From Sphingobacterium sp. PCS056 (GTDB lineage: Bacteria > Bacteroidota > Bacteroidia > Sphingobacteriales > Sphingobacteriaceae): 64,000 nucleotides of DNA. The stretch's first letter is position 1; each line of letters begins with the position of its first letter. The position numbers were made by a program, and so were the translations under genes. Under the pieces are notes generated by a model. It saw nothing but the letters and a program-made list of their open reading frames with translations, searched no databases and was not told the origin of the DNA. The stretch covers positions 1,178,001-1,242,000 of the forward strand of contig NZ_CP096883.1 in assembly GCF_023273895.1 (NCBI RefSeq). Reading direction: 5' to 3'. Below are positions 44,561 to 49,908 of this stretch, in pieces.

Positions 44561-46972
44561 TTAATTTTTTGAAATAAAATCTTGTAAATAAGTACATTCT
44601 CGGACTGCTGTTTGATAAAAAACAGTCTTTTGATATTGATTTTTTAGTTGATGAAAGTATTTGTTTTGGATTGCAAATTGATAAAATGGATTGTCATGAC
44701 TACTTTCGTAATAGGTCCATCGCATATCATCTTTTAATTCAAATTCTTTTTGCTCACATTTTGCTAACATAAATGTACACTTCGCTTTGAATTCGGGAGT
44801 TGAACCCAACTCTCGGGCTTTTAAGTACCATTCTTTGGCAGTTTTAGTTTGTGTGTAGTTTCGTTCCCAATATTGACTTGGTCTGGCATTATTGTCATAC
44901 GATGACCACTGGTAAGATACGAGAGACCATGCATTGCCGTAAGTACTTGTTTGGTAAATGCCATTTGCTAAATGAAAATAATAATCTGCTTTTTTACTAT
45001 TATTTTTTTCTTCATTTATTAAAGACTGGAACTTTAACATACGTGCTGCGTACTCGAGTTTAGTCATACCAGAAGTTCCAATTCTTTTTGGATAGTCATT
45101 GATCGTCGTAATAAATGGATCTGGAGCTATTGTCTGGTCTGTATACCAATTGCTATATTCTTTGGATTTATATGTACCAGGTAGTCTTTTTAATGTTTTT
45201 ACAGCATTCTTAAAATCTAATTCTCTCAAATAGGCGGTACCGATCAATTCGGTTAAATAATTCTTATTTATTTTTTTGATATCTTCTAGTAAAAATTGAA
45301 CCATTTTTGATGGTTTATCAGGCGTTAAAATATATTCCTGAATTCTTAACAATATTTGTGGAGTTAAATTGTCTTGCCAAAACTGGATAGTGCTATATTG
45401 CATATTATTTTCAAGTGTATCATTCACATGACCATAGTGATAAAAAGTATCACCTTTTACTGCAGCCAGGCTTGCTAGAGCAGTATCTCCTTTAATCAGA
45501 TATTGATTGACAACGATATTTTGTATGATATTTTTAGCAATGAGGCTGTAAGAGCTATTTTCAAATGCATTCCAATAACTTGGATTTTCAGATTTATTTT
45601 CTTTACGTGCCTTTTCTTGTAGCCACTTTAAGGTTGAGATCAACTGATTTTCATTTAATGTTTTATTCGCTTCCCAGTCTTTCAGTTGGGTTAACATATC
45701 TGTTATTCGTAATTGATCTTTAAGATTTTCATTCAGAGATTTAATGTCTACCTTTTTGATGTAGTTCTTTGCTAAATCATTTTCTGCATTAAGCCAGCTT
45801 AAATAAGCTGCTGTGATTAATCCTAATTGTGGTTGAACATATTTTTTATCTTTATAGAGTGAGATAGCAAGTGCTCTAACATCTTGGAGGTGTTTTTGAA
45901 TATCTTGTGTTTGTCCATCATTATACCCATTTGTGCTACTGCGACCTAGTGTATTGGGTTTGATGAAATAGTTTTCAATTTTATTGACTTCGCGCGTTAG
46001 GAGTACAGCATTAATCGTATTTGCTGGGTCTAGTTGATAACAGTTTTTAAGATATGTTAAGTTGATATTGCTGTTATTAAAACCAATAATTGCATTGATA
46101 TTGAACTTGTCGGCTTTAGTTTTTGCATGTGCTAATATTTCGGAGTCTGTAGTCTGAATATAATGGAAGTTGTTATAAGCTAATATTCTTCTTTCGGGTG
46201 ATTGTGTAAAAACTTTAGAAAATAAGAAAGCTGCTTTTGCTGGATCGCCATTTTTTCTGGTAGCGCCGGCATAATTAGATAGAGCCCATCCTAGGATAGG
46301 AGATTTTGACTTTGAGCGTGCTATGTATTTCTCATAAACCATCATACTTTTTTCATATTCTTTTGCAAAAAGAAATAACCTTGCAGCCTGATATGCATAG
46401 CGCAGTGCGATGAAGTGATTGTCTTTGTCGTTAGAAATTTTACTTTCAGCTTCTACTGCAAATTGATTTATTTTATCAAAATTACGTTCATCTGGACTCC
46501 ATGGATCCTGAGCTATATTAGTAATAGGTTCTTGATCTTTTGTAAAGATGAAATAATCCCATTCCGACTTATTTTTTGGAAGTAGTAAGCTCTGAACAAA
46601 GGTGTTATTTTGTAGCGAATCAGGTAGATTTTTTAAGGCATCATTTTTTTTAAAAATCTGTATTGTTTCTGCGTTGTATTGATACATAAGAGCGTACACA
46701 TCCTCACTTTTGACCTGGCTGCCAAGGTGATCAATCCAGTCTGCCACGTTGACCATCGCTTCAGAAATAGGTTCTTGTTCGGTATAGAGAAATTGATAAG
46801 GGATAAATTGAAAGGCTGAATAGCTATTGTCCTCCAAATTGGGGAGAAAATAGGTTTTTTGATTGTCGTATGGATCCATCTCAGGACCGCAAGCGATATT
46901 AATCGCAATCTCACTGAAATATAGGGAAAGTGTTGTGCTAAAAAGCAGCAATGACTTCTTGTAAATCTGCAT
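44561..46972 (-). CDS. Large exported helical-repeat protein of unknown function
   Basis: I do not recognise a characterised homologue. 803 residues with an N-terminal signal-like segment (KKSLLLFSTTLSLYF...) ending near IACGPEMDPYDN; the cysteine at 28 is not in a good lipobox. The body is helical and TPR-like, with a clear unit around residues 195-250 (ALRYAYQAARLFLFAKEYEKSMMVYEKYI, WALSNYAGATRKNGDPAKAAFLFSKV) and motifs rich in Trp, Tyr and Asn. The frame starts inside the preceding gene (35-base overlap), so the two are translationally coupled and probably act together in the periplasm or at the outer membrane. See findings. Confidence 0.7.
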   Translation of the reverse strand: MQIYKKSLLLFSTTLSLYFSEIAINIACGPEMDPYDNQKTYFLPNLEDNSYSAFQFIPYQFLYTEQEPISEAMVNVADWIDHLGSQVKSEDVYALMYQYNAETIQIFKKNDALKNLPDSLQNNTFVQSLLLPKNKSEWDYFIFTKDQEPITNIAQDPWSPDERNFDKINQFAVEAESKISNDKDNHFIALRYAYQAARLFLFAKEYEKSMMVYEKYIARSKSKSPILGWALSNYAGATRKNGDPAKAAFLFSKVFTQSPERRILAYNNFHYIQTTDSEILAHAKTKADKFNINAIIGFNNSNINLTYLKNCYQLDPANTINAVLLTREVNKIENYFIKPNTLGRSSTNGYNDGQTQDIQKHLQDVRALAISLYKDKKYVQPQLGLITAAYLSWLNAENDLAKNYIKKVDIKSLNENLKDQLRITDMLTQLKDWEANKTLNENQLISTLKWLQEKARKENKSENPSYWNAFENSSYSLIAKNIIQNIVVNQYLIKGDTALASLAAVKGDTFYHYGHVNDTLENNMQYSTIQFWQDNLTPQILLRIQEYILTPDKPSKMVQFLLEDIKKINKNYLTELIGTAYLRELDFKNAVKTLKRLPGTYKSKEYSNWYTDQTIAPDPFITTINDYPKRIGTSGMTKLEYAARMLKFQSLINEEKNNSKKADYYFHLANGIYQTSTYGNAWSLVSYQWSSYDNNARPSQYWERNYTQTKTAKEWYLKARELGSTPEFKAKCTFMLAKCEQKEFELKDDMRWTYYESSHDNPFYQFAIQNKYFHQLKNQYQKTVFYQTAVRECTYLQDFISKN

Positions 46973-47990
46973 AACTATAATTGGATATTACTTCTGGTGC
47001 TAAATGATAAAATATAATTCTGTTCTCTTTTCCTTGAAGTTCTTTCTTTAAAAATTTTGCTGTCGCTATCAATTGCTCTTTAGTAACAAATTCATGACGG
47101 ATCACATCTCCTTTTTTAAGATTGGCTTTTTGTAGATCTTGGTTTAGAATATATAATTCAGTTTTTGGATTTCTTGTAAAAAGGCCATTATCCTGAAAAT
47201 CTGATTGGTCAATATACTTGGATATTCCGATGTACTGTTGATCACGGAACGCGACATACCAATCAAAAAGTGGTAAAGCGATGTCTAATTGTAACGGATA
47301 GTTTTTTAATGTACCACTTAAATAGGTTGTTAAATCCTGCTGATTTAAAATGGAGTTATGATCACCAAATTGTCTCAAGTTGCCCATATTATAGCACATA
47401 AGTGTTGCTTTTTTAACAGGAGGGACACCATTTGTTTGAATATTTTTCACTTGGTGGAGTCGCAAAGTTGATGTTACTGTCACTTCATTTAGTTCTGGAA
47501 TTGTTTGTAAGAATTCGAGTAAATAAAAAAATTTATCTCTTGAACTTTTTGTCCAATCACAGTCTATTTGGAGTTCCTTGAACGCGTCTTTTCCTCCTTG
47601 CTTTACTTTTGCAGCTATAAAAGGTATCATTTTATGGGCAAGTCCTCTTATCTCTAGACTATCGAGCTCTGTAAATATTCTTTGGTTAATAAATACTACT
47701 GGAATAAGCTCCTGATTTTGATCCACAGTTTGTTCAAAAGAAATAGGTGATATGGGTGTGGGTTCAATTCCATTATCTGTAAAATCAATATCCATAACAC
47801 GTACGAACAGGGCATCGGATTTCAACTCTTGGACTATTTTTTGAGATATGGTGTCAGGTTTATAAATTGTTTTCCAGTAATAAAATCCTACAGGATGCTC
47901 TTTTTTTTGACAGGAAATGAGTAATATTATGCTAAATGCAGCGCATAAGAATATTTTTATTTTGGGAAATGCCATGGATTTTTTCTTCAT
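46938..47990 (-). CDS. Lipoprotein of unknown function, TIM-barrel-like
   Basis: 350 residues. A lipoprotein signal peptide ends at LLISC (cysteine 27); a start at the second Met (residue 6) is equally possible. The mature part contains HPVGFYYWKTIY, LFVRVMDIDF, a FKELQIDCDWTKSSRDKFFYLLEFL segment and LMCYNMGNL, which read as successive strands of a glycoside-hydrolase-like (alpha/beta)8 barrel; the QIDCDW segment recalls the DUF3142 family. The resemblance is from memory and not certain. It overlaps the start of the helical-repeat gene by 35 bases. A TACTTTTG box lies at 48037-48030 upstream. Confidence 0.65.
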   Translation of the reverse strand: MKKKSMAFPKIKIFLCAAFSIILLISCQKKEHPVGFYYWKTIYKPDTISQKIVQELKSDALFVRVMDIDFTDNGIEPTPISPISFEQTVDQNQELIPVVFINQRIFTELDSLEIRGLAHKMIPFIAAKVKQGGKDAFKELQIDCDWTKSSRDKFFYLLEFLQTIPELNEVTVTSTLRLHQVKNIQTNGVPPVKKATLMCYNMGNLRQFGDHNSILNQQDLTTYLSGTLKNYPLQLDIALPLFDWYVAFRDQQYIGISKYIDQSDFQDNGLFTRNPKTELYILNQDLQKANLKKGDVIRHEFVTKEQLIATAKFLKKELQGKENRIIFYHLAPEVISNYSYADLQEVIAAF

Positions 47991-48105: not shown

Positions 48106-49908
48106 ATGAAGACAGTTTGGAAATGGGTTATCGGCATCGTTGTGACGCTGTTAATAATGCTTGGCGGTGTCGTTTGGTATTTTAGTGTACACTGGAAGCC
48201 TCTATTGGACCAAAAATTTAAAGAACTTGTGGTCGCTTCAACAGATAGCTTGTATACTGTTGATTATGATGATTTAGATATTAATCTGGCTTTAGGAAAT
48301 GTTACGGTTAGTAATCTTGTGCTTAGGGCAGATAGTAATGTGTATAGACAATTAGAGAGTGTTAAAAAAGCGCCGGATAATCGCTTTCAAATCGAAGTGA
48401 GTAAATTAAAATTTCGAAATTTCTCGATTAAAGATATGCTCATGAATAAGGAGCTTTATCTCAAAAATGTTGTATTGGATACGCCAATTATCCATATGAT
48501 CAATGAATATCACTCATACAATGATACTGCATCTACCGAAGTCAAAAAACCGTTATATGATAAAATTAAAAATACCTTAAAAAGAATTCAAATATCTGGA
48601 ATAGCATTGAATGGGGTTAATTTTAAATATTCTCAACTCCAAAAAAATATCTATCAAGATTTTGAATTAAAAAAAGTCAATATAAAGATCCAAGATGTAT
48701 TGGTAGACTCTACATCAATATTAGATGTGAGTCGATTTTACCACACGAAAATGGTTGATATAGAAGTTCCTGGTTTTACTTATAAAACATCGGATGGCTT
48801 TTATAAAATAAACTTTGATAAGTTAAAGATCAATACAAAAGAACGCAATATCTTATTGACAAAGGTCGCCTATCAACCACTTTTGAATAAAGCTGACTTT
48901 TATAAAGCAAAAGGAAAGGGGGGGAGTTATATTGTGATGAAGTTTGACACAGTGCGTTTCGAATCTTTCGATTTTAACGATTTGATCCGCAATAAGAAAA
49001 TATATGCGGCAAAGGCACAATTAAAAAATGGTCGATTGGATATTTACTCGGATAAGCATTATAAATCCACTCCGTTGAATAAAATTGGAAGATCTCCTCA
49101 TCAGGCTTTATTACATATGAAGACGCATATGGCAATAGATACAGTATTAGTTCAGAATGCTGATATAAGTTATTCAGAGCTGAGTGAAAAATATAATCAA
49201 GTCGGGAAGATCACATTTGATAACAGCTATGCAACGATTAGTAATATGACAAATGATGCAGCCAGTTTGATCAAAAATAAATGGATGCGCGTCGATGTGA
49301 TTACAAAAGTGATGAATAGCGGGAGGTTGCATGTTTTATTTGGATTTGATATGACATCTAAAACAGGTTTTCATACTTATAAAGGCACTGTTGGAGCGAT
49401 GAAAGCTCCTGCATTTAACCAAATTTTACGCCCGCTACTGAATGTCGAAATTACTTCTGGTAATATCAAAAAAATAGCGTTTGATATGGAAGCAACTGAT
49501 CACAGAAATTGGGGGAAATTTAACTTTGATTATGATGATCTGAAAATTGCTATTTTAGAAAAGAAAGAAGATGGTACACATAAAAAGAAAGGTCTGGTTT
49601 CTTTATTGGTTAATGAGCTTCTTGTAAATGGAAGTAATCCCAACCTTTCGGGAGAATATATTATTGGAAAAGTAAATTGGCATAGACACCCTGAGCATAC
49701 TTTTTTCAAGACTTTGTGGCAAAGTTTATTGGATGGTATCAAACAGTGTGTTGGATTGAGTAAACAAAGAGAAGCAAAATTAATGCGTTCTGCTGATCGA
49801 GCGCAGCATACGCTTGAAAAGGCAAATACTGTTGTTGGTAAAACAAAGAGCTTTGTCTCAAAGCTTTTCAAAAAAGATAAAGACAGCGAAGATAAAAAAG
49901 AGAAATAG
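48106..49908 (+). CDS. AsmA/DUF748-like membrane-anchored protein
   Basis: 600 residues with one N-terminal membrane anchor (WVIGIVVTLLIMLGGVVWYF) and a long periplasmic region. The repeated pattern of strands such as YDDLDINLALGNVTVSNLVLRAD, VSKLKFRNFSIKDMLMNKELYLKNVVLDTPIIHMI, and a second half around KLKINTKERNILLTKVAYQP is typical of AsmA-like repeating beta-groove proteins that shuttle lipids between membranes. A basic, coiled tail (about 560-600, ending KKDKDSEDKKEK) would be periplasmic. No neighbouring gene clarifies the cargo. Single gene, divergent from the lipoprotein operon. Confidence 0.7.
   Translation: MKTVWKWVIGIVVTLLIMLGGVVWYFSVHWKPLLDQKFKELVVASTDSLYTVDYDDLDINLALGNVTVSNLVLRADSNVYRQLESVKKAPDNRFQIEVSKLKFRNFSIKDMLMNKELYLKNVVLDTPIIHMINEYHSYNDTASTEVKKPLYDKIKNTLKRIQISGIALNGVNFKYSQLQKNIYQDFELKKVNIKIQDVLVDSTSILDVSRFYHTKMVDIEVPGFTYKTSDGFYKINFDKLKINTKERNILLTKVAYQPLLNKADFYKAKGKGGSYIVMKFDTVRFESFDFNDLIRNKKIYAAKAQLKNGRLDIYSDKHYKSTPLNKIGRSPHQALLHMKTHMAIDTVLVQNADISYSELSEKYNQVGKITFDNSYATISNMTNDAASLIKNKWMRVDVITKVMNSGRLHVLFGFDMTSKTGFHTYKGTVGAMKAPAFNQILRPLLNVEITSGNIKKIAFDMEATDHRNWGKFNFDYDDLKIAILEKKEDGTHKKKGLVSLLVNELLVNGSNPNLSGEYIIGKVNWHRHPEHTFFKTLWQSLLDGIKQCVGLSKQREAKLMRSADRAQHTLEKANTVVGKTKSFVSKLFKKDKDSEDKKEK

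Follow-up and report, generated by a model that had tools for sequence, protein, structure and literature searches.

What do two overlapping genes do when neither encodes a protein of an annotated family? The question is raised by a pair in Sphingobacterium sp. PCS056, which lies in a stretch of 64,000 nucleotides, hereafter referred to as the window (1178001-1242000 of a 5.2-Mb single-contig genome, contig NZ_CP096883.1). The original prediction had described the pair as a candidate uncharacterised envelope system in which a barrel enzyme on a lipid anchor and a helical-repeat scaffold act on cell-surface polymers. We found that the lipoprotein is, with good support, a homologue of glycoside hydrolase family 18 (GH18) in which the catalytic Glu is replaced in all 53 aligned rows and much of the pocket is kept, and that its pairing with the second gene is near-obligate. 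We therefore give an even chance to an envelope module made up of these two genes alone, one that would bind an N-acetylated glycan and not hydrolyse it. The features on which the argument turns are listed below in window positions; the lipoprotein gene is upstream and the large-protein gene downstream.

46938-47990, minus strand: gene 1, lipoprotein of 350 amino acids with a predicted GH18-type (beta/alpha)8 barrel without the catalytic Glu (intact open reading frame, model, motif and profile-profile comparison).
44561-46972, minus strand: gene 2, predicted exported alpha-solenoid of 803 amino acids resembling tetratricopeptide repeat (TPR) proteins (intact open reading frame, model, TPR matches in some relatives).
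46938-46972, minus strand: out-of-frame overlap of genes 1 and 2, 35 nt (coordinates of the open reading frames).
47910-47912, minus strand: codon of C27, predicted lipidation cysteine of the lipoprotein, in LLISC (Cys in 50 of 53 aligned rows, the other three being trimmed before it).
47550-47564, minus strand: codons of D143-C-D-W-T147, at the position of the GH18 motif DxxDxDxE, Glu changed to Thr (alignment columns; register from hhalign).
47391-47393, minus strand: codon of Y200, in LMCYN, counterpart of the Tyr in the GH18 beta6 motif MxYD (Tyr in 53 of 53 rows; hhalign alignment).
46862-46891, minus strand: motif CGPEMDPYDN of the large protein, residues 28-37 (C28 in 45 of 45 rows across the phylum, the rest variable).
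44594-44596, minus strand: codon of C793, invariant C-terminal Cys of the large protein (45 of 45 rows).

No Pfam or NCBIfam model matched either window protein with a score above its cut-off, and in this sense the pair is as uncharacterised as had been proposed. Relatives were sought by scanning the genomes of 84,980 species with the window lipoprotein, which confirmed 257 loci; the best 80 of the 257 were kept, all from Sphingobacteriaceae by record title, and the nearest named relative among the loci found was Sphingobacterium faecium (lipoprotein identity 93%). The lipoprotein alignment comprised 53 rows from 52 genes (loci L019 and L105 being one gene), and the large-protein alignment 45 rows from relatives drawn from across Bacteroidota. 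In the AlphaFold2 model predicted from the former (predicted local distance difference test, pLDDT, 94.2), the barrel begins at about residue 34, directly after C27, and carries an insertion after beta7, read by us from the secondary structure of the model and also present in some GH18s. Foldseek ranked SleL first for this model (E = 3.3e-10); judged by title, almost every one of the 50 matches listed was a GH18 chitinase or a GH18-fold non-enzyme. The VIA structural aligner gave SleL a Z of 19.0 (root-mean-square deviation, rmsd, 6.0; 294 aligned) and the other 49 matches listed, which included the pseudo-chitinases YKL-39, SPX-40 and Ym1, a Z of 17.6-18.5, with an rmsd of 4.0-4.7 over 267-287 aligned residues except for a second SleL entry (rmsd 7.3, 298 aligned).

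Profile comparison pointed to the same family. Aligned by hhalign with 18 Bacteroidota GH18 domains (40 related genomes had yielded 25 loci, of which these are 18), the lipoprotein alignment reached a probability of 95 and E = 3.7e-8, with IDCDWT placed on IDIDWE, LMCYN on MxYD and T147 on the catalytic Glu, whereas the control, the large protein against the same 18 domains, gave E = 0.87. Other searches returned little: with E values as high as 10 allowed, Pfam gave no hit for the window lipoprotein, which hence did not reach the cut-off of PF00704, a family that matched one of the 53 rows (E = 0.015); a search of the sequences of solved structures with the lipoprotein profile returned nothing credible; and member-by-member Pfam and NCBIfam scans of the relatives gave scattered weak matches besides TPR motifs in some solenoid relatives and DUF3142 in five lipoprotein rows. 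Taken together, model and profiles make a GH18-type (beta/alpha)8 barrel homologous to GH18 well supported, and the TIM barrel of the original prediction is thereby upheld. Because the protein scores below the cut-off for GH18 and does not carry the full catalytic motif, we class it as GH18-fold and GH18-homologous rather than as a GH18 enzyme.

GH18 catalysis depends on the acid/base Glu that closes the motif DxxDxDxE. As the hhalign register puts IDCDWT on IDIDWE, T147 occupies the position of this Glu, and here the alignment, which reads QIDCDW(T/S) throughout, has Thr in 44 rows, Ser in 9 and Glu in 0 of 53. The first Asp of the motif (position 140) was likewise found in 0 of 53 rows, and the GH18 beta8 Trp is apparently lost too, as judged by eye in a region outside the hhalign match. 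Much of the remaining pocket is kept: W39, D143, D145, W146, T175, R177, Y200, P240 and E300 are invariant in 53 of 53 rows, position 67 is Asp in 49 and Glu in 4, and position 331 is Asp in 51, yet Ala in the window's own protein. Y200 matches the beta6 Tyr that in GH18 holds the N-acetyl group of the substrate. The lipoprotein family is not decaying, for its pocket is strictly constrained despite the missing catalytic Glu, and the conserved acidic residues whose absence would have spoken against the original idea are present (D143 and D145 in every row). Since the Glu is replaced in all 53 rows, hydrolysis of the canonical kind is unlikely and binding is the likelier role. The barrel enzyme first suggested, if taken to act on polymers in the customary manner, finds no support.

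The same invariant pocket is the ground for the main rival explanation, in which the barrel would still be catalytic, as a glycosidase or some other enzyme of glycan processing, through a rearranged site (D145 or D143 with another residue such as D331, E300 or R177), and the solenoid would position the polymer. It would account for the retention of D143, D145, W146, T175, R177, Y200, P240 and E300 and for the acidic residues prevailing at positions 67 and 331, and it agrees with the closest fold, SleL, whose PDB title names a spore cortex-lytic enzyme. It has to do without the acid/base Glu and the Asp at position 140 in 53 of 53 rows, and seemingly without the beta8 Trp, and we know of no GH18 that works without that Glu. 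We thus consider such an enzyme improbable.

Comparison with known systems places the barrel among GH18-like proteins but sets the pair apart. With the GH18 chitinases and glucosaminidases (PF00704; nearest solved structure SleL, 4S3J/4S3K) it shares the predicted barrel, the D-x-D, the beta6 Tyr and profile homology; it differs from them in the Thr or Ser for Glu in every row, the loss of the first Asp, its place below the Pfam cut-off, and its being a lipoprotein with a near-obligate TPR-like partner. The pseudo-chitinases YKL-39, SPX-40, Ym1, narbonin and IDGF-2, all among the structural matches listed, have the same fold; the PDB title of YKL-39 describes a pseudo-chitinase that retains chitooligosaccharide binding, and the other four are not known to have chitinase activity. 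These proteins are eukaryotic and are not known to have a coupled solenoid, and the loss of Glu here is presumably independent of theirs. DUF3142 (PF11340) is the Pfam family most often matched by the lipoprotein homologues (5 of 53 rows, best E = 0.01); its match spans the DCDW motif in L076 and L151 but scores 15.7 and 14.7 bits there against a cut-off of 30, and the window lipoprotein is unmatched. PF11340 was found in 0 of 198 Bacteroidota genomes, 0 of 14 control genomes and 0 of 1 plasmid record, a scan that does not show its absence. A pairing of DUF3142 with an 'ACGPDFP' protein in Pseudomonadota may be a parallel.

Closer in lineage are BT1284 and the B. faecium protein 8W01, Bacteroidales GH18-like proteins with substituted catalytic residues that are catalytically impaired (PMC11180146). 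They resemble endo-beta-N-acetylglucosaminidases (ENGases), the solved one having an N-terminal DUF1735 beta-sandwich; the present lipoprotein has no DUF1735 domain and has a dedicated TPR-like partner instead, and 8W01 ranked 48th in the Foldseek list for its model. In the open-licence literature we found no work on Bacteroidetes pseudo-chitinases, on GH18 pseudoenzymes or on pairs of a GH18 lipoprotein and a tetratricopeptide protein in Bacteroidota, and on inactive GH18-like surface glycan binding PMC11180146 alone; for DUF3142 a single paper, comparing genomes, was listed. The two-part envelope module thus looks undescribed, while GH18-like pseudo-enzymes as such are already known.

One relative departs from the lipoprotein architecture. 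At L178:9928-12582 (genome G244) the barrel forms the C-terminal part of an 885-residue frame without a lipid anchor. The ~500 residues ahead of it resemble, by eye, a polytopic membrane protein; they had no Pfam match, and a stretch of 452 of them had no PDB match. Besides itself, this membrane part had one distant homologue in the 395 genomes described below, and there the homologue and the gene pair lie on separate contigs.

The pairing itself was examined by running the profiles of both proteins on 395 Bacteroidota genomes. The lipoprotein profile matched 47 and the large-protein profile 46, all 46 within the 47, so that 46 genomes (~12%) hold both genes, one holds the lipoprotein alone and none the large protein alone; some genomes gave up to 3 lipoprotein match rows, part of which are pieces of one gene. 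The module is spread over 13 families and 23 of 170 genera. By their coordinates the genes are adjacent in 44 of the 46 two-gene genomes, so the outcome named beforehand as refuting, genes apart in most genomes, did not occur; G210, where the contig ends just past the lipoprotein gene, and G232 are treated below. Moreover, among the best 80 of the 257 loci both genes were present in the same order in 80 (fused in L026, and with the large gene split in L043). Pairing of lipoprotein and solenoid as near-obligate is therefore well supported. The expected co-occurrence in Bacteroidota held, with a distribution that is patchy at 12% rather than reaching most genomes.

The 35-base overlap of the two intact frames had been described correctly and is common among relatives. 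Leaving out L026, L043 and L076, 77 Sphingobacteriaceae loci overlapped by 35 nt (43 loci), 38 nt (14), 41 nt (12), 44 nt (1) or 65 nt (7). In pairs from other families, whose large proteins are 20-27% identical to that of the window, 20 of 21 overlapped by 17-86 nt (18 of them by 32-41 nt) and one by 4 nt, counted from the first Met by our own rule. The overlap suggests translational coupling of the two genes; a fixed ratio of their products, as had been claimed, does not follow from it. Tree distances of the two proteins were correlated (r = 0.924 over 65 rows, which are 63 distinct pairs with two entered twice; 0 of 2000 permutations were as high), which shows joint descent and not contact.

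Several loci deviate from the two-gene arrangement. The frame at L026:4977-8438 (Sphingobacterium multivorum NCTC11343) reads lipoprotein and solenoid as one protein of 1154 amino acids, and the search listing gives the same fused reading for L007 (G005). The L026 fusion comes from a single-base difference from its relatives inside the overlap and is either a real fusion or a sequencing or assembly error; because of the latter possibility we do not take it as evidence of natural fusion. At L043:5950-8407 (Pedobacter agri PB92) the solenoid gene is split over two frames by a frameshift or a sequencing error. Tandem solenoid genes follow a single lipoprotein gene at L045:5813-10801 (two) and L054:5953-10960 (two), and three stand at a contig start at L167 (G210:C11:1-7048); extra copies seem to arise of the partner and not of the barrel.

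Nothing else appears to belong to the unit. We compared the surroundings of 39 loci (19 near and 20 distant stretches) and found no other neighbour cluster in more than 3 of the 20 distant stretches, the larger clusters being those of near relatives; with no widely recurring third gene, the two-gene unit seems to travel alone. Among 20 genes scanned around the pair (15 distant, 2 near, 3 from the window), none matched SusC/SusD models and 3 had no match at all. In plasmids, tblastn found nothing for two lipoproteins, and for the solenoid a single match that was weak (E = 0.6).

The partner is a helical protein, as had been proposed. Its AlphaFold2 model from the 45-row alignment (pLDDT 87.8) is almost wholly helical and consists of tandem antiparallel helix pairs, the arrangement of the TPR superfamily fold, and its N-terminal hydrophobic segment predicts export. 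Its structural matches were TPR proteins of a generic kind (Foldseek E = 2.8e-3 at best; highest Z 10.2, with rmsd 15.0 and 246 aligned), for which reason we call it no more than a TPR-like solenoid. The window protein scored below the Pfam TPR cut-offs (TPR_14, 15.5 against 23.5 bits; TPR_12, 15.3 against 30.1), while TPR_2 matched 6 of 45 relatives (best E = 3e-6), and a search of solved-structure sequences with its profile gave nothing credible, weak TPR chains only. Like OGT TPR, LGN and SprE it would thus be a helical solenoid, with TPR motifs in some relatives; unlike them it has two invariant cysteines, C28 and C793, near its opposite ends (each 45 of 45 rows), and no strong sequence or structure match. 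The start CGPEMDPYDN had been put forward as a hallmark of the family. This holds close to home, where C28, E31, D33, P34 and D36 are invariant in 28 near relatives and the motif in Sphingobacteriaceae stays close to CGPExDPYD, but across the phylum C28 alone is invariant in the 45 relatives. A disulfide between C28 and C793 might join the ends of the solenoid, a conjecture for a model of low confidence at residues 25-29. C28 was also considered as a second lipidation site and rejected: a strict lipobox occurred in just 5 of 43 rows, by a weak rule that passes 16 of 50 lipoprotein rows.

Such a partner would also suit a second alternative, a protein-assembly or chaperone module in which the solenoid binds cargo (secreted proteins, for example, or those of the outer membrane) and the barrel does no more than tether it to the membrane. 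TPR solenoids usually bind protein, variability is greater in the large protein (mean column identity 28% in its alignment against 37% in that of the barrel), and the solenoid stands in tandem copies in L045, L054 and G210, all of which would fit. A plain tether would not need a pocket invariant in 53 of 53 rows. SprE of the type IX secretion system (T9SS), which is among the structural matches of the solenoid, might seem to add weight; we rejected this kinship because its Z (9.8; rmsd 12.2, 304 aligned) ties with those of unrelated TPR proteins. We judge the chaperone module unlikely.

Where the pair would act is suggested by the N-terminus of the lipoprotein, which is signal-peptide-like and ends in LLISC. 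All 50 rows long enough to include the lipidation Cys have it, and the residues after it are mainly basic (C-QKKEH in the window); two or more acids at +2 to +6 occur in 6 of 50 rows. The export signal of surface lipoproteins, K-(D/E)2 just after the lipidated Cys, was worked out in Capnocytophaga (PMC5080379). The present lipoprotein lacks such an acid-rich stretch, and a signal defined in Capnocytophaga may not be that of Sphingobacterium. The basic residues, unlike K-(D/E)2, weakly favour the periplasmic side, which would be the most likely location of the module.

A near-obligate, overlapping pairing free of a third gene would imply a two-protein complex, and a mechanism can be proposed for it. 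The lipid anchor of gene 1 would tether the complex to the membrane, and the Glu-less GH18 pocket would hold an N-acetylated glycan (peptidoglycan, a chitin-like oligosaccharide or an envelope polysaccharide) without cutting it. The solenoid, probably translated in coupling with gene 1, would be its obligate binding partner and serve as the scaffold or effector arm of a tethered recognition or scaffold complex. A bolder version, which we regard as possible but doubtful, is a widespread, unnamed two-protein machine in which a former enzyme, the GH18 barrel, has been re-purposed to read sugars or for some other task in a membrane-tethered complex with a near-obligate TPR solenoid, perhaps with a new GH18 chemistry, and which would sense or organise cell-wall or envelope glycan. 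Neighbours in two distant genomes, in one a polysaccharide deacetylase directly downstream of the pair (L162:10434-11222), in the other a GH3 plus beta-lactamase protein immediately upstream of it (L164:11089-14031), give a weak hint at polymers of N-acetylglucosamine (GlcNAc) and are too few for use.

Several observations weigh against a glycan-binding complex. The module is dispensable, as 348 of 395 genomes are without both genes, and even in Sphingobacterium the lipoprotein is present in 19 and lacking in 17 of 36 genomes. The co-occurrence test (Fisher P = 1.4e-59) is uncorrected for relatedness; the lipoprotein-only genome, G284, holds a short match to the lipoprotein gene; the genes of G232 (L176, L177) lie within different long contigs, unlinked, uniquely among the 46; and the genomes of f22/g22 have no gene overlap. 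The invariant pocket, T175, P240 and E300 included, could equally mean unusual chemistry. Finally, binding of BT1284 to the high-mannose N-glycans tested was not measurable (PMC11180146), and hence loss of the Glu is no proof of lectin function.

The copies of two genomes of the window's genus, L017 (G028) and L020 (G020), nest with family f26, their lipoproteins being 51% and 47% identical to the nearest f26 copy against 35% and 31% to that of the window; a tree holding six rows of the genus together was rejected (approximately unbiased, AU, test, P = 3e-5; L034 and L086 lie outside that set), and transfer or ancient paralogy is thereby suggested. A module for competition or defence that passes from species to species could draw on this nesting, on the patchy spread (47 of 395 genomes) and on the several copies in some genomes, but we hold it highly improbable, since no PADLOC model matched either window protein at E = 0.1, no neighbour of any kind is widely recurrent, and the near loci L021, L023, L034 and L035 share their surroundings.

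The window pair itself has ordinary flanks: on one side RsgA and, beyond it, a gene that we take to be that of DNA polymerase I. On the other side, a divergent protein of 600 amino acids (48106-49908, plus strand) with an N-terminal hydrophobic segment had no Pfam match at E = 1e-4, and the genes beyond it are presumably those of Trk-type potassium uptake.

Overall, two unannotated families are drawn into one module, for which a fold is predicted, the substitution is precise and the partner is sharply defined. If a pseudo-glycosidase has become fixed in such a unit of two genes across 13 families, it would show a way in which an enzyme can turn into a receptor. Since the ligand suggested by the GH18 fold is an N-acetylated glycan, screening for it would be straightforward. 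The Bacteroidota include environmental, plant and gut bacteria, and many of their envelope proteins are still unexplained.

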